Position numbers and translations under genes: made by a program
Notes under the pieces: generated by a model
The model's database searches: none
Told to the model about the DNA's origin: nothing
The model's input: only the letters and a program-made list of their open reading frames with translations
Assembly: GCA_009886125.1 (NCBI GenBank)
Contig: VFJK01000183.1
Span: 1 to 36,261 of the forward strand
Source of the DNA: Geobacter sp.
GTDB lineage: Bacteria; Desulfobacterota; Desulfuromonadia; Geobacterales; DSM-12255
Reading direction: 5' to 3'
DNA: 36,261 nt
In this document: positions 6,932 to 23,853 of the stretch, piece after piece
How positions within the stretch are numbered: position 1 is the stretch's first letter
Layout: the number at the start of each line of letters is the position of its first letter

Positions 6932-7018
6932 TGGTGCCCGGAACCGGAATCGAACCGGTACAGCATTTCTGCCGAGGGATTTTAAGTCCCTTGCGTCTAC
7001 CAATTCCGCCATCCGGGC
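6932..7018 (-). tRNA. tRNA-Leu (anticodon UAA)
   Basis: An 87-base class II tRNA including an encoded CCA end. Read on the minus strand it starts GCCCGGATGGCGGAATTGG, which pairs with TTCCGGGC before CCA as the acceptor stem. The anticodon arm AGGGA-CTTAAAA-TCCCT gives anticodon UAA. It has the long variable arm of leucine tRNAs (CGGCAGAAATGCTG) and a GGTTCGATTCC T arm. It lies 22 bases after ihfB and may be processed from that transcript. Confidence 0.96.
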
Positions 7019-14581: not shown

Positions 14582-17500
14582 CTATTGGATGACAATATTG
14601 TCGAAAGTCACAGTACCAGCGGTTATGATAACTGTGCCCTGAATAGCAGTAGTGCCGTTCCTGCTTGCATAATTCGTATCATAACCACCAATAAGTGAAT
14701 ATGAAGCCGCCCGGTTCAGGATCAGGTCACCACTAAAAACTGTGCTGCGCAGCTTCAGCTCCCCTCCTTCGGCAATTGCTCCGACTGCCGCAGCCAGTGT
14801 GCTGTAATACGTCCCGCCAATGTTGATATCAGTGCTGGCCGAATTAATTGTCCAGCCATAGGTCGCAGGAGTTTGATCGTAGTTACCAGCCGTGTCTTTA
14901 GCCTTGACTTCGAAGGTGTGGCTTCCAACAGAAAGCCCGGTGTAGTTGATCCCGGTTGTGCAGGCGGTAAACGAGCCGCCGTCTATCTTGCACTCGAAGG
15001 TGGCAGTGCCATCGGAAGAGGTGAAGGTGAATGTTGCTGTTGTTTCAATAGTCGAGTTGGCAGGTTGACCGGTGATGCTGGTATCAGGTGCTACTGTGTC
15101 GATGCTCCAGGTGTAGCTGGCTGGTGTCGTGTCGAAGTTGCCGGCGAGGTCTTTTACCCGTACCTGGAAAGTGTGGCTCCCCTCTGCCAGTGACGGGAAG
15201 CTATGCGGTGAAGTACAGGTGCTATACGAACCACCGTCGATGCGGCACTCGAAGGTTGCCCCGGCCTCGGAGCTGAAGCTGAAGCCAAAAGGTGCTAAGG
15301 TGGCCGGGTTTGCCGGTTGAGCGGTGATGCTGGTTTCCGGCGGTGTGGTGTCTATTGTCCAGCTGTAGCTGGCCGGTGTGGCCTCCGAATTGCCAGCAGG
15401 GTCGGTAGCGCGGACCTGGAAGGTGTGGCTGCTGTCCGCAAGTGCCGTAAATGAGTACGGGCTGGTGCAGGTAGAAAAGTCTGCACTGTCCATCCTACAG
15501 GCAAAAGTGGAGCCAGCTTCGCTGACAAAGGAGATGGTGCCTGAGGCAGAGTTGTAGAGGCTGGCCGGCTTTCCGGAGAGGATGGTTACCGGCGGGGTGC
15601 CGTCATAGATGATAGTGTCCTTTGAGGGAGGGTTAGAGACGTTCCCTGCTCCATCCCGATACCGGACAAAGACCGATCTTGCTGTGCTGCCAATAGAGAG
15701 TGTCCACTCCTTGCTGGTTCCGTACGCCTCCCAGTCGCTCCAGGTGCTGTTGTTGTTGGAGAATTGCATCTCGGCAACAGTGCCGCTGTTGTCGTATGCT
15801 GAGAGGGTGAGCGTGACAGCCAATGTTCTGGTATAGGTAGCACCACCGTTGATGATGATAGTGCCACTCGGCGGCGGATCGAAGCCCGTCCCGGAGAGAG
15901 TTAAGTAGCTGTAAGGGGTTACGGAATCGTTGGAGGCGATTCTGACCACGGCATTCCTGAGCCCGGAGGATGTGGGGATGAACGAGAGCAGCACCGTACA
16001 GCTTTCAGCCGGTGCCAGGGTCGGCGTGAGGCTCGGGCATGTCCCTGGCTCGACCGTGAAGTCGGTGGTGTCCCCGGTTACTACGGTTACTGCGCTGACT
16101 ACGAGGCTTGCGTTGCCGGTGTTGCTGATGGTTACTGTCTCCGGAGAGGAGAAGTTGCCGATGGTGATGGTGCCGCCAGAATAGGATGAAGGCGACACTG
16201 AGATGACCGAAGAACCAAATGACCCGGACTGGCCGCCGCGAACTGGCCAGACATAGTTGATGTCCGTCATAACGTTGTAGCCCACGTAGCCATAGCTCAT
16301 ATCGACGACCCAGGCGATGGTTGTATCGGCCGCGTAGGTACTGGAAGACCAATAGTAGTTAGACTGGACATTGCTAAATCCTTGTGCGTTCAAAAATGTG
16401 GAGCTGTGGAATTGTTCACGGTTAACAAGACTTGAAAGTTCATTGATATTCGGGAAGCGCCAGTCAGTATGATTCAGATAGTTGTTGGTATTTAGACAGG
16501 CAATATAATCAAGCGCCCCCTGCCAAGTCATCTGGCCGCCACTACAGCTTGTAAATGTCGGCGTTCCACCATCCTGTGACCACTCGAGTCCGGTCAGTTT
16601 ATCAAGAACAACGGCTCCGCTGACCGGACTGCTGCCGTCCGGATTGGTAAAGCGAGTCTCCGGCCAGGCAATCCCTTTCTCCAGATCGCCGTCATCACCG
16701 GTTGCAAAACTGGTAGTCTGCCCGGTTTTAGGGATTGAAATACCCGAATTACCAAATGATCCGGACTGTCCGCCGCGAACAGGCCAGACATAGAAGTAGA
16801 GCATCTTATGGCCGCGGTACACGCTGCCATTGAGCATATCGACGTACCAGGCGTAGGCTTCTTGATAGGCCGCGTAGGTACTGGAAGACCAATAGGCGCT
16901 AGCGCTAGACTGGACATTGCTAAAGCCTTGTGCATTCAAAAATGTGCTGACATTGGTTTCTTCACGGCTAACAAGACTTGAAAGTTCATTGATATTCGGC
17001 AAACGCCAGTCAGTATGATTCAGATAGTTGTTGGCATTAAGACAGGCAACATAATCCAATGCCCCTTGCCAGGTCATCTGACCGCCGGTGCAACCAACTG
17101 CAGTCGGCGTGCCACCATCCTGCGGCCACTCCAGACCGGTCAGCTTATCGAGCACGACGGTGCCACTCACCGGGCTGCTGCCGTCAGGATTGGTAAAACG
17201 CGTCGCAGGCCATGAAATCCCTTTTTCCAGATCGCCGTCATCACCGGTCGCATAGCTGGTGGTCTGACCGGTTTTGGGAAGCATAGCTGGCGGCACGTAC
17301 GCAGCCATCAGGATATACTCGGCCGTAACACTCTTCAGCCCGTTCATGCTTACTGTGCAGACATTTCCATTCACGCTGTCGCAGCCGGTCCAGATGTTGA
17401 AGCTGGAGCCGGGATCGACCGTGGGAGTGAGACTGACGGTCGTGCCGCTGCTGTAGGAATTGGCACAGAAGCCGGTGCAGCTGCCGCCGGTGGAGAAGGC

Positions 17501-20500
17501 AACCGAGCCGGTCCCTTCCCCCTGTATGTCGAGAATCAATGCAAAATCCTGAATTATTCCGTTGCCGGTCAAAGTAGCGGTGACAAGAGGATAGACCGGA
17601 TCATCGGAGGCGACCTGAAGGATTGCACTCCGGCCACCGGAACTGGTAGGTGTAAAGGCTACATTGACTGTGCAGCTTGCGCCTGATGCCAAAGTGGGGG
17701 TAAGAGTTGCACAAGTTCCAAGTGTAACGCTGAACATGGCGCTGTCAGTGCCGGTCAGAGTGATGGCGCTGGTGGTGACAGTTGAAGTAGTTCCATTTCT
17801 GAGGGTAAAGGTGCTGCTGGCTGAAATAGACAGGGCGACATTACCGAAATCGTTAGATGGCGAGGAAAGTGAAAATATTCCCCTGGCAGAGCATGTCGTG
17901 CTGTCACTCCCGCCACTGCTGCCGGTGCATGTCCAAGACCATGGGCCATAGCCAGTCGGAGTAGCAGATACAGTGCCCCTGGCACAGAGATAATTGGTCG
18001 GTGCTGAGCTAAAGGTCTTGCTATGGCTGCTCCCGCAGACACCGCTCACCGGACTTGTTATTGCCTGATCAGCATCATTTAAGTCACAATTGGAAGCATA
18101 GCCATCATTATCAACGTCAGTCAGACTGGCATAGTTGAGGCCAGGCTGGTAACCGACCATCACCGAACGGCTGACGTTGTTATAGGTTGTGCCGTTGCTG
18201 CCGTCGAACGCCACGATCCGGAAGATCACCCCCTCCTGCATATACGATGCAGGAACCGTAACCGATGCCTGCTGCATCATTGTGCCAGCCGTAGAAGGGA
18301 AAGTAACCGGAGTCAGATTGTTCGCAGAATCATACGCTTCAATGTAGTACCAAAGCCGCAGATCGCTGGCTACCGGCGCCCAGGAGATACGAAGGTCGCC
18401 GCTAGGCTCCGGATCAATCTGGAAGGTGTGGTAGTCCACGGATGGAATGGCATGGGGAGCAGGCTGAAACTTGTAGCGAACCGCGCTTTTAGTCGTATCA
18501 TCAAGCACAGTAAAAGTATAAAGACCGGTTGCCGGGCTTCCGGCTTCAGTCAGACTATATCCGCCACTGCCCGAGATATCCGGGATTGTGAGGGTACGAG
18601 TATACTCGCCTGGGCCATCAACACGTTGCTGGGTTATAGTTTCGTTCCCGTCCGGATCGGAAGCGTTGATCAGAAGGTGTGTCGCACTGACGCCATCGGA
18701 ATTGATCTGGTTACGAACCTTGTAGCTGTTGATGACCGGTCTGGCGGCATCATAAGCAACCGGAACAAGGGGGATGTAGGCGCTGTTGGAGCGATTGCGC
18801 TGGGTGTAGTTAGTATCACTGTCGTAGGCCTCGACACGCCACCGTTTGTTCTCCAGACTGCCAAGAGAGGCAACCGTCATATCGACAAAGGTTTGATTTT
18901 TGCGGGCCGAAGTGGTCATAATACCGGTGGTGGTATCATTGACCATGACCTGGTAATAAAGAGCGCCTGTGTGGTCCACACTTGCCCAGCTGAAGCGTAT
19001 GTCGCCATTATTCAGGTATTCGGCCTGCATGGTAGAACTATCAGGTGTCGGGTAGGAAACCGGAGCCGTCAAAGTTGCATACGCATTGTGGGTAACTCCG
19101 TTTGCCACAAAGCGGATAGTGTATGCACCCGGAGTGAGTGGTGGGTTGAATACATGGAAAATGTCGGTGCCGGAGGGATTCATGTCAGCGATTGTATCGA
19201 ATGTGTAAACAACCGCACTCGTCGCATCAAGCAGTTGCGCAGAACTGACAACAGCAGGATTATTCACATTCAGAAAGACATCTGTCGAAAGGGCGCCCTC
19301 TGGTGGGCTAAAACGATTATAAAGAATGGCATAGTCAACCAGCAGTCTGTTGGGATCGTAATCCCTCGAATCCGGGCCGAATAACTTCCAAGCCGAATTC
19401 GAGCGCTTTGTCACCAGATCATAGTTTAGCGAATCGCCTGCCTCTATAACCAGCTTGTACATGGAATCATCAAACAGCACCCCAACCCCAAGATCCACAT
19501 ACGTTGCTGAGCTTCGAGCGCTGTCATACACAATGGTGCTGGCAGCATCATTGCGGTATATGCGGACACGATAAAAGTAGGTCTGTGTATCATTCACCGG
19601 CGCCCAGCTTATCCGGTATGATTCGTTTGTCTCCGACTTCCGCTGTATCTGGATCGTTGCGCTGTCAACCCGCGGCATACTGTTGTTGGCAACGGTGACG
19701 TGAGTATCGACCCGGTGGCTGATGTTCCCATTGCCATCGTTAAGGGAAAAGGTGTAGATGCCCGGTTCAAGGGGTGTGTCAGGAGTCGGATATTTTTTTG
19801 TCACATTCATCTGGCCATTGATGTAGGTGTCCATGTCAGCATCAGTAAAGGTGTAGTTGAATCCATTCGGCCCGCTGACACTCATGCTCATACCGGCAAG
19901 AGTTGTTGCGTAGCTGGACATCCCGGCATTCAGAACATCATACTCGCTGCCATCTGATTCAATTTTGTGGGTGACTCCGGCCCAGGTCAGGATAGCCGGT
20001 GGTGTGCCAACATTAGGGGTGAAGCTCTGGGCACTGGTAGCTGTTCCGCCGAAGTGGGTAACAGTTATAGTCCCGGATGTCGCACCGGACGGTACAAGTA
20101 CGAACAGTTGATTGTGACGCGCACCGGTAACAACAGCAGGGGTTCCGTTGAAAAGAACCGTGTTGTCGGAAAGCATCGGGCTGAAATTGTTGCCGTTTAT
20201 GGTAATCAGATTGCCAGGCATGCCGCTCAAAGGGCTGACTGAATTAATGGTTGGCGGCCAAATGTCGGTGCACTGACTGATGTTAGCGGAAAGGGATATT
20301 GTGCCGTCACTATCGAGAGTCAGTGTATAGACCCCTGAAGAGGTGGTTGAACTCCAGATTCCAACGATATCGCCGGGGATTCCGCTGGCTCGTGTAAAAT
20401 AACTGATATCTTCAGGACTTGACTGGAAGATCAAAGAAGTAGCTGTTAGTTCTGTGACGGTAATATTTATTGGGCCAATACCCGTACCGTCACAGAGGAA

Positions 20501-23500
20501 ATCTGAGCTTGTAAAGCTTCCTGTAAGGGGTTGCGGCAGTGTTCCGGGAGTATACGAGTAAGTACCGGTTGACGTATACAGAGGGTGCAGATTAAAGGTT
20601 GCGGTCACACTCTTTGCAGTTGACATGGTCACGGTACAGACATTCCCGTTCACACTGTCGCAGCCGCTCCAGGCTGAGAAATAGGAAGAACCGTTTGCCG
20701 TGGGGGTGAGTGTAACAACTGTTCCCGGAGTATAGCTCTGATTGCAACTGCTGGTGCATGCCAGATCAGTGCCGGGGGAGGAGTGGACTGTGCCGCTACC
20801 GTTGACAGTAAGGGAGAGAGAATTCATCCCTGAGAGGATGGTATAAACCACGGTTTGCACCGCTTCGCTATTGGTGGCGATATCTTTCGAAAAGTATTTG
20901 AGCGTTGTCGTCTGGTTGATGTTGACGGCGCCAGTGTAAGGAGTCGAAGCGGTGGTCGGGACAGTGCCATCCGTGGTGTACCAGGTGCCGCTACAACCGG
21001 AGGTGTTATCGCTACAGGAAAGCTGTACGCTCTGGCTGCTGGCGTAACTGCCCCCCGGAATATCAGCAGAGGTCACCGGCGGGATAGTGTCGATGGTCCA
21101 GGTGTAACTTACCGGCGTCAACTCCTTGAATCCATCCGGGTTGGTGGCCTGTACCCGAAAAGTGTGATTACCTTCACCAAGAGCGGAAAATTCATAGATG
21201 ACCTCGGCGCACGGGGATAAGCTGGCGCTATCCATGCTGCATTCAAAGGTGCCGCCTCCGCTGGAAGAGAATACGAAACTCCCTGATGCTAACGTGGAAA
21301 TACTGGCAGGCTTGTTCCAGATTGTGGTTACCGGCGGTCTATTATCATAGCCAGTGCCGGTGACATTAATAAAGCTAGTCGGGTTAGCAGGATCGTTGGA
21401 AGAGATAGAGACCTGATCAGACCTGGCTCCAGAATACTCAGGCGTAAAGGTGATCACAACTGTACAGCTCTCTGCAGGAGCCAGGGTCGGATTCAGTTTT
21501 GGGCAGCTGCCAAGTGAGACGGTGAACCCAACAGGAGACCAGATATCACTTACAACCAGATCGGAGCTGCCACTGTTGCTGACAGTAATAGTCTGCTGAG
21601 TGGAGGAGTTGCCAACGGTGACCGTGCCGCCTGCGAAAGTTGTTGGAGAAACATCGATACTGGGAGCGGGGGTAATCACTGGGGCAAACTTGAACACACC
21701 CTTTTGATCTATCCCGGCGTAGACTTTTGCCGGGTTTAAAGGATCTATGACGAGTGTCTGCACATTACTGTACAACGCGACGCTGTTTGGCAGCCCGTCG
21801 TTCATGAAATTCCAGCTAGAACCGCTGTCGATCGACTTTAAGACGCCGCCACCGCCTTCTGTGCCAGCAAATATAGTTGCTGGAACAAGTGGATCAATAA
21901 CGAGTGCCGGGACATTAGTACCGTTCGGCATGCCGCTTTCGTACCAGCTAGCACCACCATCTATTGTTTTGTAAACACCAGCATCCATCCCGGCATAGAT
22001 GGTCGCCGGGGTAAGCGGATCGATGACAAGGGTCAGCACATTTGGGTACGACAGGCTATAGTCCATGGAGTTCCAGGTGTCACCACCGTCAATCGACTTG
22101 AAACCGCCGGTCGCTGCCACGGCATATATGGTTGCCGGGGCAAGAGGATCAATGGCAAGGAGCCGCGGAAAATCTCCCGACAAACCACTGATGCTCCAAC
22201 TAGTTCCACCATTAATTGACTTGAAGACACCGCCACTTGTCGCGGCATAGATGACGTCTGGAGTAGCAGGATTTATGACGAAGGCCTCCGCATATAGCTG
22301 ATAAATACCGTCATTCAAGTCACTATCAATGGCGCTCCAGCTATCACCAGCGTTGGTAGATTTGAAGAGGCCGTCAGATGTCGCGGCATAAATGGTCGCC
22401 GGGTTAACAGGGTCTATGGCAAGTAGCAACACATTGCAGGAGATCTGACAGAGACCGCTATTCCTGGCGCTCCAGCTGTTGCCGCTGTCAAGCGATTTGA
22501 AGACGCCGCCACTTGTCCCGGCATATATGGTCGTCGGAGTAAAACGATCTATGGCAAGTGCAGCTACGTCACTGTTTGTCAAGCCGCTGCTCATGATGTT
22601 CCAACTACCCGCACTGTCAGTTGTTATGAAAACGCCGCCATTATCCGACGTCGCAGCGTAGATGGTCGCCGGAGTAAAACGATCTATAGCAAGAGCCCAC
22701 ACAATACTGTTTGATTGCAGACCACTGTTCACTGCGATCCAGCTGTCGCCACTGTCGATTGTTTTAAAAACTCCATTATCCGTCCCGGCATAGATGGTCG
22801 CCGGGGAAAGAGGGTCTATGGCAAGTGCCCAAACATAACCGTTTGACCAGCCGCTGTTCACGGCGCTCCAGCTAGCGCCGCTGTCAATAGATTTGATGAC
22901 GCCTACCCAGGTCCCGGCGTAGATGGTCGTCGGGGCGAGAGGATCTATTACGAGTGACAATACACTGCCTGTCGGGCCACAGTTCATGTTGTTCCAGCTG
23001 TTGCCAGCGTCATTCGACTTAAAAACACCACTATCATCTGTCCCGGCATAGATGATCGCCGGGGCAAGTGGATTTATGACGAGCGTCAGCACACTACTAT
23101 CCGGCGACAGACCGCTGTTGATGGCACTCCAGGTAGTTCCACCATTGATGGATTTGAAGACGCCTTCAACAGTCCCGGCATAGATGGTCGCCGGGGTAGC
23201 AGGATCTATTGCAAGTGCCAGCACACTACTGTCCAGCGGCAGGCCGTTGTTCATCGGGCTCCAGCTGTCTCCACCGTCAAGCGATTTGAAGATGCCACCA
23301 ATTGTCCCGGCATAGATGGTTGACTGGTTTGCAGGATTGATGGCAAGTGCCTGCACAGTCCTATGGGTCAGACCGCTGTTCATGGCGCTCCAGGTATTTA
23401 CACCGTCAATCAGTTTGAATACACCGGCATTTGTCCCGGCATAGATGGTCGTCGGAGTTACCGGGTCTATAGCGAGAACAGATATTTTACCAGGAGGAGT

Positions 23501-23599
23501 TGAGTTGGTCTGCACCCACCGCTCTCCCGTTTGATCAGCAGCCACCAGATTAACTGATGACAGTATTAGTAATACAATTATGTGTAATTTGAATTTCAT
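14582..23599 (-). CDS. Giant secreted multi-domain protein (BNR/sortilin-like repeats, ASH, Ig-like, IPT/TIG, two Lcl/DUF1566 domains)
   Basis: About 3005 residues. I start at ATG 23599 because AGGAGGG (23604-23610) precedes it and it exposes a signal peptide (MKFKLHIIVLLILSSVNLVAA, cut after residue 21). In order: about 40-640, fourteen BNR/sortilin-like repeats (IYAGT-GVFKSIDGG-SW); 648-755, an ASH/choice-of-anchor D domain; an Ig-like and a chitobiase-C-like domain; an InlB-B-like repeat; about 1116-1197, IPT/TIG; FnIII-like stretches; about 1823-1850, a DVDNDGYASNCDLNDAD calcium-type motif; a second ASH and InlB-like pair; 2107-2283 and 2288-2463, tandem Lcl/DUF1566 domains; a third ASH; three Ig-like repeats (TTPPETSIT); a C-terminal domain ending DNIVIQ. 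No sortase, PEP-CTERM or transmembrane anchor is visible. A role in surface binding is inferred. The leader has a cyclic-dinucleotide riboswitch. Confidence 0.9.
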   Translation of the reverse strand: MKFKLHIIVLLILSSVNLVAADQTGERWVQTNSTPPGKISVLAIDPVTPTTIYAGTNAGVFKLIDGVNTWSAMNSGLTHRTVQALAINPANQSTIYAGTIGGIFKSLDGGDSWSPMNNGLPLDSSVLALAIDPATPATIYAGTVEGVFKSINGGTTWSAINSGLSPDSSVLTLVINPLAPAIIYAGTDDSGVFKSNDAGNSWNNMNCGPTGSVLSLVIDPLAPTTIYAGTWVGVIKSIDSGASWSAVNSGWSNGYVWALAIDPLSPATIYAGTDNGVFKTIDSGDSWIAVNSGLQSNSIVWALAIDRFTPATIYAATSDNGGVFITTDSAGSWNIMSSGLTNSDVAALAIDRFTPTTIYAGTSGGVFKSLDSGNSWSARNSGLCQISCNVLLLAIDPVNPATIYAATSDGLFKSTNAGDSWSAIDSDLNDGIYQLYAEAFVINPATPDVIYAATSGGVFKSINGGTSWSISGLSGDFPRLLAIDPLAPATIYAVAATGGFKSIDGGDTWNSMDYSLSYPNVLTLVIDPLTPATIYAGMDAGVYKTIDGGASWYESGMPNGTNVPALVIDPLVPATIFAGTEGGGGVLKSIDSGSSWNFMNDGLPNSVALYSNVQTLVIDPLNPAKVYAGIDQKGVFKFAPVITPAPSIDVSPTTFAGGTVTVGNSSTQQTITVSNSGSSDLVVSDIWSPVGFTVSLGSCPKLNPTLAPAESCTVVITFTPEYSGARSDQVSISSNDPANPTSFINVTGTGYDNRPPVTTIWNKPASISTLASGSFVFSSSGGGTFECSMDSASLSPCAEVIYEFSALGEGNHTFRVQATNPDGFKELTPVSYTWTIDTIPPVTSADIPGGSYASSQSVQLSCSDNTSGCSGTWYTTDGTVPTTASTPYTGAVNINQTTTLKYFSKDIATNSEAVQTVVYTILSGMNSLSLTVNGSGTVHSSPGTDLACTSSCNQSYTPGTVVTLTPTANGSSYFSAWSGCDSVNGNVCTVTMSTAKSVTATFNLHPLYTSTGTYSYTPGTLPQPLTGSFTSSDFLCDGTGIGPINITVTELTATSLIFQSSPEDISYFTRASGIPGDIVGIWSSTTSSGVYTLTLDSDGTISLSANISQCTDIWPPTINSVSPLSGMPGNLITINGNNFSPMLSDNTVLFNGTPAVVTGARHNQLFVLVPSGATSGTITVTHFGGTATSAQSFTPNVGTPPAILTWAGVTHKIESDGSEYDVLNAGMSSYATTLAGMSMSVSGPNGFNYTFTDADMDTYINGQMNVTKKYPTPDTPLEPGIYTFSLNDGNGNISHRVDTHVTVANNSMPRVDSATIQIQRKSETNESYRISWAPVNDTQTYFYRVRIYRNDAASTIVYDSARSSATYVDLGVGVLFDDSMYKLVIEAGDSLNYDLVTKRSNSAWKLFGPDSRDYDPNRLLVDYAILYNRFSPPEGALSTDVFLNVNNPAVVSSAQLLDATSAVVYTFDTIADMNPSGTDIFHVFNPPLTPGAYTIRFVANGVTHNAYATLTAPVSYPTPDSSTMQAEYLNNGDIRFSWASVDHTGALYYQVMVNDTTTGIMTTSARKNQTFVDMTVASLGSLENKRWRVEAYDSDTNYTQRNRSNSAYIPLVPVAYDAARPVINSYKVRNQINSDGVSATHLLINASDPDGNETITQQRVDGPGEYTRTLTIPDISGSGGYSLTEAGSPATGLYTFTVLDDTTKSAVRYKFQPAPHAIPSVDYHTFQIDPEPSGDLRISWAPVASDLRLWYYIEAYDSANNLTPVTFPSTAGTMMQQASVTVPASYMQEGVIFRIVAFDGSNGTTYNNVSRSVMVGYQPGLNYASLTDVDNDGYASNCDLNDADQAITSPVSGVCGSSHSKTFSSAPTNYLCARGTVSATPTGYGPWSWTCTGSSGGSDSTTCSARGIFSLSSPSNDFGNVALSISASSTFTLRNGTTSTVTTSAITLTGTDSAMFSVTLGTCATLTPTLASGASCTVNVAFTPTSSGGRSAILQVASDDPVYPLVTATLTGNGIIQDFALILDIQGEGTGSVAFSTGGSCTGFCANSYSSGTTVSLTPTVDPGSSFNIWTGCDSVNGNVCTVSMNGLKSVTAEYILMAAYVPPAMLPKTGQTTSYATGDDGDLEKGISWPATRFTNPDGSSPVSGTVVLDKLTGLEWPQDGGTPTAVGCTGGQMTWQGALDYVACLNANNYLNHTDWRLPNINELSSLVSREETNVSTFLNAQGFSNVQSSASAYWSSSTYAAYQEAYAWYVDMLNGSVYRGHKMLYFYVWPVRGGQSGSFGNSGISIPKTGQTTSFATGDDGDLEKGIAWPETRFTNPDGSSPVSGAVVLDKLTGLEWSQDGGTPTFTSCSGGQMTWQGALDYIACLNTNNYLNHTDWRFPNINELSSLVNREQFHSSTFLNAQGFSNVQSNYYWSSSTYAADTTIAWVVDMSYGYVGYNVMTDINYVWPVRGGQSGSFGSSVISVSPSSYSGGTITIGNFSSPETVTISNTGNASLVVSAVTVVTGDTTDFTVEPGTCPSLTPTLAPAESCTVLLSFIPTSSGLRNAVVRIASNDSVTPYSYLTLSGTGFDPPPSGTIIINGGATYTRTLAVTLTLSAYDNSGTVAEMQFSNNNSTWSDWEAYGTSKEWTLSIGSTARSVFVRYRDGAGNVSNPPSKDTIIYDGTPPVTILSGKPASLYNSASGTISFVSEAGSTFACRMDSADFSTCTSPYSFTALADSSHTFQVRATDPAGNSEATPASYSWTIDTTPPETSITAQPANPATLAPFGFSFSSEAGATFECRIDGGSYSTCTSPHSFPSLAEGSHTFQVRVKDLAGNFDTTPASYTWSIDTVAPDTSITGQPANSTIETTATFTFTSSDGTATFECKIDGGSFTACTTGINYTGLSVGSHTFEVKAKDTAGNYDQTPATYGWTINSASTDINIGGTYYSTLAAAVGAIAEGGELKLRSTVFSGDLILNRAASYSLIGGYDTNYASRNGTTAIQGTVIITAGTVTFDNIVIQ
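16245..16378 (-). other. Candidate DGR-type variable region, copy B (second Lcl domain)
   Basis: This 134-base end of the second Lcl domain (residues about 2408-2451) starts with TTTAGCAATGTCCAGTCT and ends TATGTCTGGCC, both identical to copy A. Between them 19 codons differ from copy A, always at codon position 1 or 2, with position 3 kept. Variable codons here include AAC, TAC, GAT, ACA, ACC, ATC, GTC, AGC, TAT, GGC and GAC. That is what random replacement of the adenines of AAC/AAT-type template codons would give. It lies in the lectin-like loop part of the fold (YWSSSTYAA to YVWPVR). Confidence 0.6.
16782..16924 (-). other. Candidate DGR-type variable region, copy A (first Lcl domain)
   Basis: The 143-base end of the first Lcl domain (residues about 2226-2272), partner of the region at 16245-16378. 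It is 9 bases longer (three codons, in frame). A 27-base core (TAT TGG to GCG GCC, encoding YWSSSTYAA) is identical in both copies. Variable codons here include AGC, GCC, TAT, GAA, TAC, CTC, AAT, CGC, GGC, CAT, AAG and TTC. With the single-codon gap placed to best advantage, no third-position difference occurs inside the region, unlike its flanks. No reverse transcriptase or template copy is present in the window. Confidence 0.6.
21680..23480 (-). repeat. Fourteen tandem units of about 130 bases encoding BNR/sortilin-like repeats
   Basis: The units encode 43-45 residue repeats of the form V-ALAIDP-TPATIYAGT-GVFKSIDGGDSWSAMNSGL. I count thirteen full units and a short fourteenth (VQTLVIDPLNPAKVYAGIDQ). 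At the DNA level the phrase GGCATAGATGGTCGCCGG (plus strand) and close variants recur in most units. Repeats of this type form blades of beta-propellers; fourteen would fit two seven-bladed propellers, which is an inference. Confidence 0.85.
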
Positions 23600-23635
23600 C
23601 TGACCCTCCTCGAACAACAATAAATTGTACAAAAC

Positions 23636-23714
23636 AAAAAAAACCCGACTACGGAAAATCCGAAGACAGGTGAACGGAAAGATGCAGACAGCATCTCCAT
23701 TTTCTCTTCGGCGG
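23636..23714 (-). terminator. Probable riboswitch expression platform (conditional terminator)
   Basis: Directly after the aptamer the transcript can form a large imperfect hairpin: CCGA and GAAAAT pair with ATTTTC and TCGG. Alternatively CCGAAGA pairs with TCTTCGG, with AGATGC-TGTCT-GCATCT inside. It ends in eight U residues (A run 23636-23643 on the plus strand). The CCGAAG strand overlaps the 3' side of the aptamer, so ligand binding could decide whether the terminator forms. The giant gene starts 37 bases after the U run. Confidence 0.55.
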
Positions 23715-23780
23715 CTGGGCTGTCTACGGGAGGCCCCTGGCTCTGCGTCACCGGATCGCTCCGGTTTTGCTCTGATCGAT
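23701..23780 (-). promoter_or_regulatory. GEMM-I cyclic dinucleotide riboswitch, variant with A at the ligand-discriminating position (GEMM-Ib like)
   Basis: Read on the minus strand the leader has AGAGCAAAACC, a hairpin ACCGGA-GCGA-TCCGGT with a GNRA tetraloop, GACGCAGAGCC, a second stem built on GGGC/GCCC, and a closing AGCCGCCGAAG. This is the GEMM-I layout (family sequence GGGCAAACC, GNRA hairpin, GACGCAAAGCC). Vc2 A47 is kept in GACGCA. Vc2 position 20 is A instead of G (minus-strand base at 23771: AGAGCA instead of AGGGCA). In published GEMM-Ib riboswitches of Geobacter this A goes with 3',3'-cGAMP sensing. It is about 100 bases ahead of the giant secreted-protein gene and behind a good promoter. 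Confidence 0.85.
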
Positions 23781-23823
23781 GAGTATTAATTTATTAAGAT
23801 TAAAAACAACTATCGGTTCAGAA

Positions 23824-23853
23824 ATTATTACGGATAGTTTACTGAATTGTCAA
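23824..23853 (-). promoter_or_regulatory. Promoter for the riboswitch-controlled giant gene
   Basis: TTGACA (23853-23848) and AATAAT (23829-23824) on the minus strand are 18 bases apart, close to the sigma-70 consensus. Transcription would start near 23817, about 40 bases before the riboswitch aptamer. The remaining sequence up to the toxin gene stop at 24127 shows no gene; it is AT-rich and contains a GAA microsatellite. Confidence 0.65.

Follow-up and report, generated by a model that had tools for sequence, protein, structure and literature searches.

An A20-GC variant of the GEMM-I riboswitch, possibly a cGAMP-responsive OFF switch, heads the gene for a giant secreted protein in a Geobacter sp.

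The gene for a 3005-residue secreted protein in a Geobacter sp. (order Geobacterales) is preceded by a leader with the appearance of a GEMM-I riboswitch, which raises the question of which second messenger this RNA senses and whether the messenger promotes or prevents expression of the protein. The window analysed here is the whole 36,261-nucleotide contig VFJK01000183.1, one of the 192 contigs of a 3.57-Mb genome (assembly GCA_009886125.1). A sequence-only reading had proposed that positions 23701–23780 hold a riboswitch of the cGAMP-sensing GEMM-Ib kind that places an adhesin-like protein under cGAMP.

The Rfam covariance model RF01051 (GEMM-I/c-di-GMP-I) matches the minus strand of the window at 23707–23781 with 44.8 bits against a gathering threshold of 35 (E 9.2e-6 over the entire window), and the match spans model positions 1–87, i.e. 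the full length of the P1-P2-P3 architecture. The covariance search suggested in the sequence-only reading was thus positive on the expected strand, and the coordinates given there were right to within a few bases. The leader contains the GEMM-I elements AGAGCAAAACC, a GCGA-capped hairpin, GACGCAGAGCC and the closing strand GCCGCCGAAGAG. As had also been claimed, the counterpart of Vc2 G20 in this leader is an A (23771); Rfam aligns it to model position 11, where it is unpaired and immediately precedes the lower P2 pairs (G-C/C-G) on the 5' side. The same position is occupied by G11 in Cd1 (PMC9262584) and by A14 in the cGAMP riboswitch 4YAZ (numbering from PMC6274999). Two other assignments were considered and rejected. 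A register shift, with G23772 as the ligand base and the A as an insertion, disagrees with a J1/2 equal in length to that of G20 aptamers and with an Rfam alignment that requires no insertion; membership of RF03167 (c-di-GMP-I-GGC), a family of the same clan as RF01051, disagrees with both the score (46.6 against a threshold of 59) and the consensus, which is G20/G47 in that family and A20/A47 in the window. We have hardly any doubt that the window aptamer is a functional GEMM-I riboswitch. The features of the locus are as follows.

23824–23853, minus strand: sigma-70-like promoter TTGACA-N18-AATAAT, 11 of 12 consensus positions (consensus match only)
23707–23781, minus strand: GEMM-I (c-di-GMP-I) riboswitch aptamer, A20-GC subtype (RF01051 score; subtype covariation)
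23777–23783, minus strand: P1 5' strand CUCAUCG, with one A.A mismatch against the 3' strand
23771, minus strand: ligand-contacting base A (Rfam alignment, model position 11)
G23770-C23745 and C23769-G23746, minus strand: lower P2 pairs
23750–23765, minus strand: P2 hairpin with GCGA (GNRA) loop
23744, minus strand: A, equivalent of Vc2 A47 (invariant alignment column)
23711, minus strand: C, equivalent of Vc2 C92 (invariant alignment column)
23705–23711, minus strand: CCGAAGA, 3' strand of P1, which would also supply the 5' half of the antiterminator
23674–23700, minus strand: spacer hairpin AUGGAGAUGC-UGUCU-GCAUCUUUCCGU between aptamer and terminator (MFE folds)
23660–23666, minus strand: UCUUCGG, terminator 5' arm, 7 bp complementary to the P1 3' strand (p 0.024–0.034 against shuffles, this leader alone)
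23643–23671, minus strand: intrinsic terminator hairpin ACCUGUCUUCGGAUUUUCCGUAGUCGGGU, −12.2 kcal/mol
23636–23643, minus strand: U8 tract at the end of the terminator hairpin (sequence)
23604–23610, minus strand: Shine-Dalgarno-like AGGAGGG (sequence)
14582–23599, minus strand: 3005-aa ORF, secreted protein (ATG start, AGGAGGG upstream, signal-peptide-like N-terminus)

The promoter, previously placed 44 bases upstream, runs from 23853 to 23824 and ends 43 nt before the aptamer, and the hairpin described downstream does end in U8 (23643–23636). A further 107 nt separate the aptamer from the ATG of the ORF (23599–14582), whose signal-peptide-like start agrees with the secreted 3005-residue product that had been proposed.

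The GEMM-I aptamers of the Geobacterales fall into a group with A20 and a C-U/G-G lower P2 (the 4YAZ type), a group with G20 and mainly G-C/G-C, and a smaller group with A20 and G-C/G-C, here termed A20-GC, to which the window aptamer belongs. Model-based searches gave 70 aptamers, comprising 38 A20 C-U/G-G, 11 G20, four A20-GC and minor types; a larger A20-GC tally from another aptamer set carries a bias from the searches behind it. All 26 aligned members of the subtype keep A20 and the equivalents of A47 and C92, and their helices contain 50 double-change cells against 21.3±4.7 after shuffling, a count reached in none of 500 shuffles. Because these 26 relatives covary, the window aptamer is not a chance structure. 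The subtype is found in Geobacterales, in Desulfuromonas and its relatives and in some Chloroflexi/Anaerolineae bins, and G20-GC aptamers coexist with it in the same genomes (e.g. G059). It is a little-described subtype that recurs in Geobacterales/Desulfuromonadales, and it may already figure in the 2015 aptamer lists of Kellenberger, Nelson and Ren. Two further kinds of GEMM-I variation were seen in these searches. Three aptamers from Geobacterales family f4 (L062, L074 and L075; genomes G108 and G106) have C at the Vc2-G20 position (CGCAAA), with L062 belonging to RF03168 (c-di-GMP-I-UAU) and the other two to RF01051, and a different ligand specificity is possible for them. Tandem GEMM-I arrays that mix A20 and G20 within a leader occur in Chloroflexi/Anaerolineae bins ahead of response-regulator or ruvB genes (L114, 3572–3319, minus strand; L127, 5399–5658, plus strand; L137, 883–620, minus strand), where two-messenger logic is a possibility.

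Judged by its sequence, the window riboswitch quite likely responds to cGAMP. Replacement of A20 with G is alone sufficient to convert the Gmet_0970 riboswitch from cGAMP to c-di-GMP (PMC6456294), and a natural single-base A-variant from Desulfobacca acetoxidans has a marked gain of c-AMP-GMP binding, with ‘perhaps a slight weakening’ at most of its affinity for c-di-GMP (PMC9481103). Because comparable A-variants can retain c-di-GMP affinity in this way, the window aptamer may not recognise cGAMP exclusively, plausible as a response to it is. The characterised GEMM-Ib aptamers of Geobacter (4YAZ; Gs1761, Gm0970, pilM) share with the window the RF01051 fold, A at Vc2-20, A47 and C92, and their hosts are of the same order and likewise have Hypr GGDEF enzymes. 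They differ from it in the lower P2, which is C-G/U.G (C-U/G-G by strand) in that scaffold and G-C/C-G (G-C/G-C) in the window, and in J1/2, which is AUAAUA in the former and AUCAGA in the latter; changes in the lower P2 influence ligand selectivity (PMC9262584). Nearest in kind to the window are the Vc2 G20A mutant (4YB1) and the D. acetoxidans cluster-3 aptamer (PMC9481103), both with A20 in a canonical GEMM-I scaffold, although the mutant is engineered, unlike the window aptamer, and the D. acetoxidans aptamer differs in lying within an AdoCbl tandem array and being predicted to be ON. It is possible, if somewhat doubtful, that the window switch is dual or prefers c-di-GMP, with an A that tolerates both ligands, c-di-GMP as the usual messenger in vivo and cGAMP incidental. 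A canonical GC/GC lower P2, the same as in c-di-GMP aptamers, would fit such a switch, as would the c-di-GMP affinity kept by the D. acetoxidans variant, the response of the G. sulfurreducens omcST switch to both cGAMP and c-di-GMP (PMC6456294) and the presence in the genome of about 18 canonical GGDEFs against two of the Ser type. It fits poorly with the fixation of A20 in the subtype although G20-GC aptamers occur in the same genomes (G059), with a host genome that has no G20 GEMM-I and with the flip of Gmet_0970 to c-di-GMP by the single A20G change.

A cGAMP synthase encoded in the same genome is the usual partner of a GEMM-Ib riboswitch, though not one that strictly defines it. The mark of Hypr GGDEF enzymes is a GGDE[F/Y] motif combined with Ser or Thr, instead of Asp, at position 348 (PMC6456294), and of about 20 GGDEF proteins checked in the genome, two (L014 and L012) combine Ser at the diagnostic site with this motif. 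The first, a Rec-GAF-GGDEY protein with Ser348 (GHLIGS...GGDEY) encoded next to hisS, has as its best PDB match 6d9m, a Gmet GacA construct (E 2.4e-65), and carries the GacA-like Hypr signature, so that it is a predicted cGAMP synthase; the second is a Ser-type GAF-GGDEF protein whose best PDB match is again 6d9m. The search for a Hypr enzyme proposed in the sequence-only reading was therefore successful, but in an order where 137 of 141 genomes carry such signatures its outcome does not discriminate. For the same reason co-occurrence of Hypr enzymes and A20 was rejected as uninformative, and two good genomes (G005 and G006, family f2) in which neither a pattern nor a GacA search found a Hypr GGDEF nevertheless carry canonical GEMM-Ib aptamers, which may reflect draft gaps or another source of cGAMP. 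A genome search found one other GEMM-I aptamer in the source genome, a canonical Geobacter GEMM-Ib (C143:8477–8553; AAUACUCAACC...GGGCGGAAAGCC) ahead of an XRE-like gene and pilM, in agreement with the cGAMP ON switch known for pilM in G. metallireducens (PMC9262584). The label of cGAMP-sensing GEMM-Ib thus holds for the window as far as A20 and the Hypr GGDEF are concerned; it does not extend to exclusive cGAMP recognition, and the scaffold is not of the characterised GEMM-Ib type, which is common in the class but no strict requirement for it.

As to the direction of control, we lean towards an OFF switch, in which ligand would bring about termination. The prediction rests on a terminator that is separate from the aptamer and whose 5' arm can pair with the 3' strand of P1, a layout like that of Cd1. 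In Cd1, the c-di-GMP-I OFF switch of Clostridioides difficile (PMC9262584), aptamer and terminator likewise coexist and compete with an antiterminator, although it differs from the window in having G at the ligand position, c-di-GMP as ligand and an unrelated gene. A simple-hairpin search showed a stand-alone terminator in the window and in nearly all A20-GC leaders where a terminator was found, and antiterminator pairing exceeded that of dinucleotide-shuffled 5' arms over 17 A20-GC leaders (combined p 4.7e-6, which is too small a value as the leaders are related; L093 and L100 were mis-segmented). Eight G20 leaders showed no excess over shuffled 5' arms (p 0.6), and the pairing is absent from the A20-GC members L096, L101 and L103. 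A larger and looser terminator search, which fused A20-GC terminators with upstream structure, gave no clean split for these leaders (10 terminators separate from the aptamer, nine overlapping it); only its GEMM-Ib result is used here, and for A20-GC that of the simple-hairpin search. In stepwise MFE folding, which takes no account of ligand energy, tertiary contacts or kinetics, the window leader passes from P1 to the antiterminator, which is the MFE structure at 126–132 nt (−39.9 against −35.4 kcal/mol), and from 144 nt onwards to P1/aptamer plus terminator (−48.2 against −44.3 kcal/mol). Most other leaders transit the same antiterminator state.

Our working model, held with moderate confidence, is that the A20-GC riboswitch controls the 3005-aa gene as an antiterminator-based OFF switch with cGAMP as its most likely ligand. 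3',3'-cGAMP, made by the GacA-like Hypr GGDEF enzymes of the same cell, would be bound, perhaps with some residual binding of c-di-GMP. When ligand is absent, the emerging UCUUCGG would pair with the P1 3' strand CCGAAGA and open P1, and this antiterminator pairing would delay the terminator and allow read-through into the 3005-aa gene; when ligand is bound, P1 would be kept closed, leaving UCUUCGG free to form the terminator. The aptamer, its A, the terminator, the recurrent complementarity and the Hypr signature genes are seen in the sequences themselves; which ligand is bound, which way control runs and that the switch is used in vivo we infer.

The more conventional possibility is that cGAMP switches the giant protein on by blocking termination. 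In G. sulfurreducens, deletion of gacA lowered every gene under GEMM-Ib control (PMC6456294), the characterised cGAMP switches in the cited literature are all ON, which counts against an OFF reading although the platform does not enter into the definition of the aptamer class, and reviewers predicted the D. acetoxidans A-variant to be ON (PMC9481103). We nevertheless regard an ON switch as unlikely in this leader. The known ON switches use the aptamer strand AGCCGGGUUGCC as terminator 5' arm, and in 17 of the 18 canonical GEMM-Ib leaders with a terminator found this arm (AGCCGGGUUGCC...) lies within the aptamer, so that ligand blocks termination, whereas the aptamer and terminator of the window coexist in the MFE structure, as in the OFF switch Cd1 (PMC9262584). 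The cGAMP-driven expression implied by the sequence-only reading is therefore probably wrong, the expression platform predicting OFF. It is also conceivable that the leader is decaying or constitutive, its structure recognisable and its ligand response lost: there is one mismatch in each of P1 (A.A) and P3 (C.A), the genome has two GEMM-I aptamers compared with 6–8 in three genus-mates and 11–30 in others, and the giant gene has no ortholog in the genus. This we consider very improbable, given that the pocket bases, GNRA loop, promoter, terminator, antiterminator and Shine-Dalgarno sequence are intact and the full-length Rfam match is far over threshold.

Returning to the protein that the predicted OFF switch would control, Pfam/NCBIfam searches assign to it a BNR/Vps10-like propeller, three choice-of-anchor-D/HYDIN Ig domains, OmpL47/CHB_HEX_C and TIG domains, an InlB-like domain, two Lcl_C domains and Big-like repeats; a match to the Ca_tandemer adhesin repeat fell under the cut-off. 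The propeller, choice-of-anchor D, TIG and Lcl_C domains do not specifically support the description ‘adhesin-like’, and an adhesin role is a guess. The idea that the giant gene is conserved with its switch was rejected, as no ortholog was found among genus-mates and the sister aptamer (L029/L048, in G002) heads an unrelated 1494-aa MBG-domain protein; the conserved link is for this reason with a kind of protein and not with one gene. Other A20-GC leaders precede genes for proteins of this kind, with sizes of 2705 aa (Kelch/Ig; G053), more than 1253 aa (Kelch/HYDIN; G009), 984 aa (RCC1; Geomobilimonas luticola), 841 aa (TIG/fn3) and 1123 aa (with a subtilase domain). This link is only a tendency, because the leaders L096, L098 and L101 head ordinary-sized genes; RCC1 proteins are also found downstream of GEMM-Ib leaders. 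Elsewhere in the genome, a second giant ORF (G000:C179, L104; 3266 codons open) has weak propeller similarity to the 3005-aa protein and no GEMM-I ahead of it, and the window also contains an ordinary tRNA-Leu-like gene with a long variable arm (6935–7018, minus strand).

Known cGAMP signalling in Geobacter is an all-ON regulon of pili, cytochromes and polysaccharide genes. With its OFF layout and its repeated occurrence ahead of very large secreted proteins, the A20-GC subtype would extend the action of cGAMP to the repression of surface proteins, and its aptamers would offer a natural test of the bases other than position 20 that determine selectivity. We suggest, tentatively and with more doubt than confidence, that the A20-GC aptamers may constitute a separate class of cGAMP OFF switches, widespread in Desulfuromonadia, by which giant secreted propeller/Ig surface proteins are shut off while canonical GEMM-Ib switches turn on pili and cytochromes. 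If this were true, a single messenger would reciprocally remodel the cell surface.
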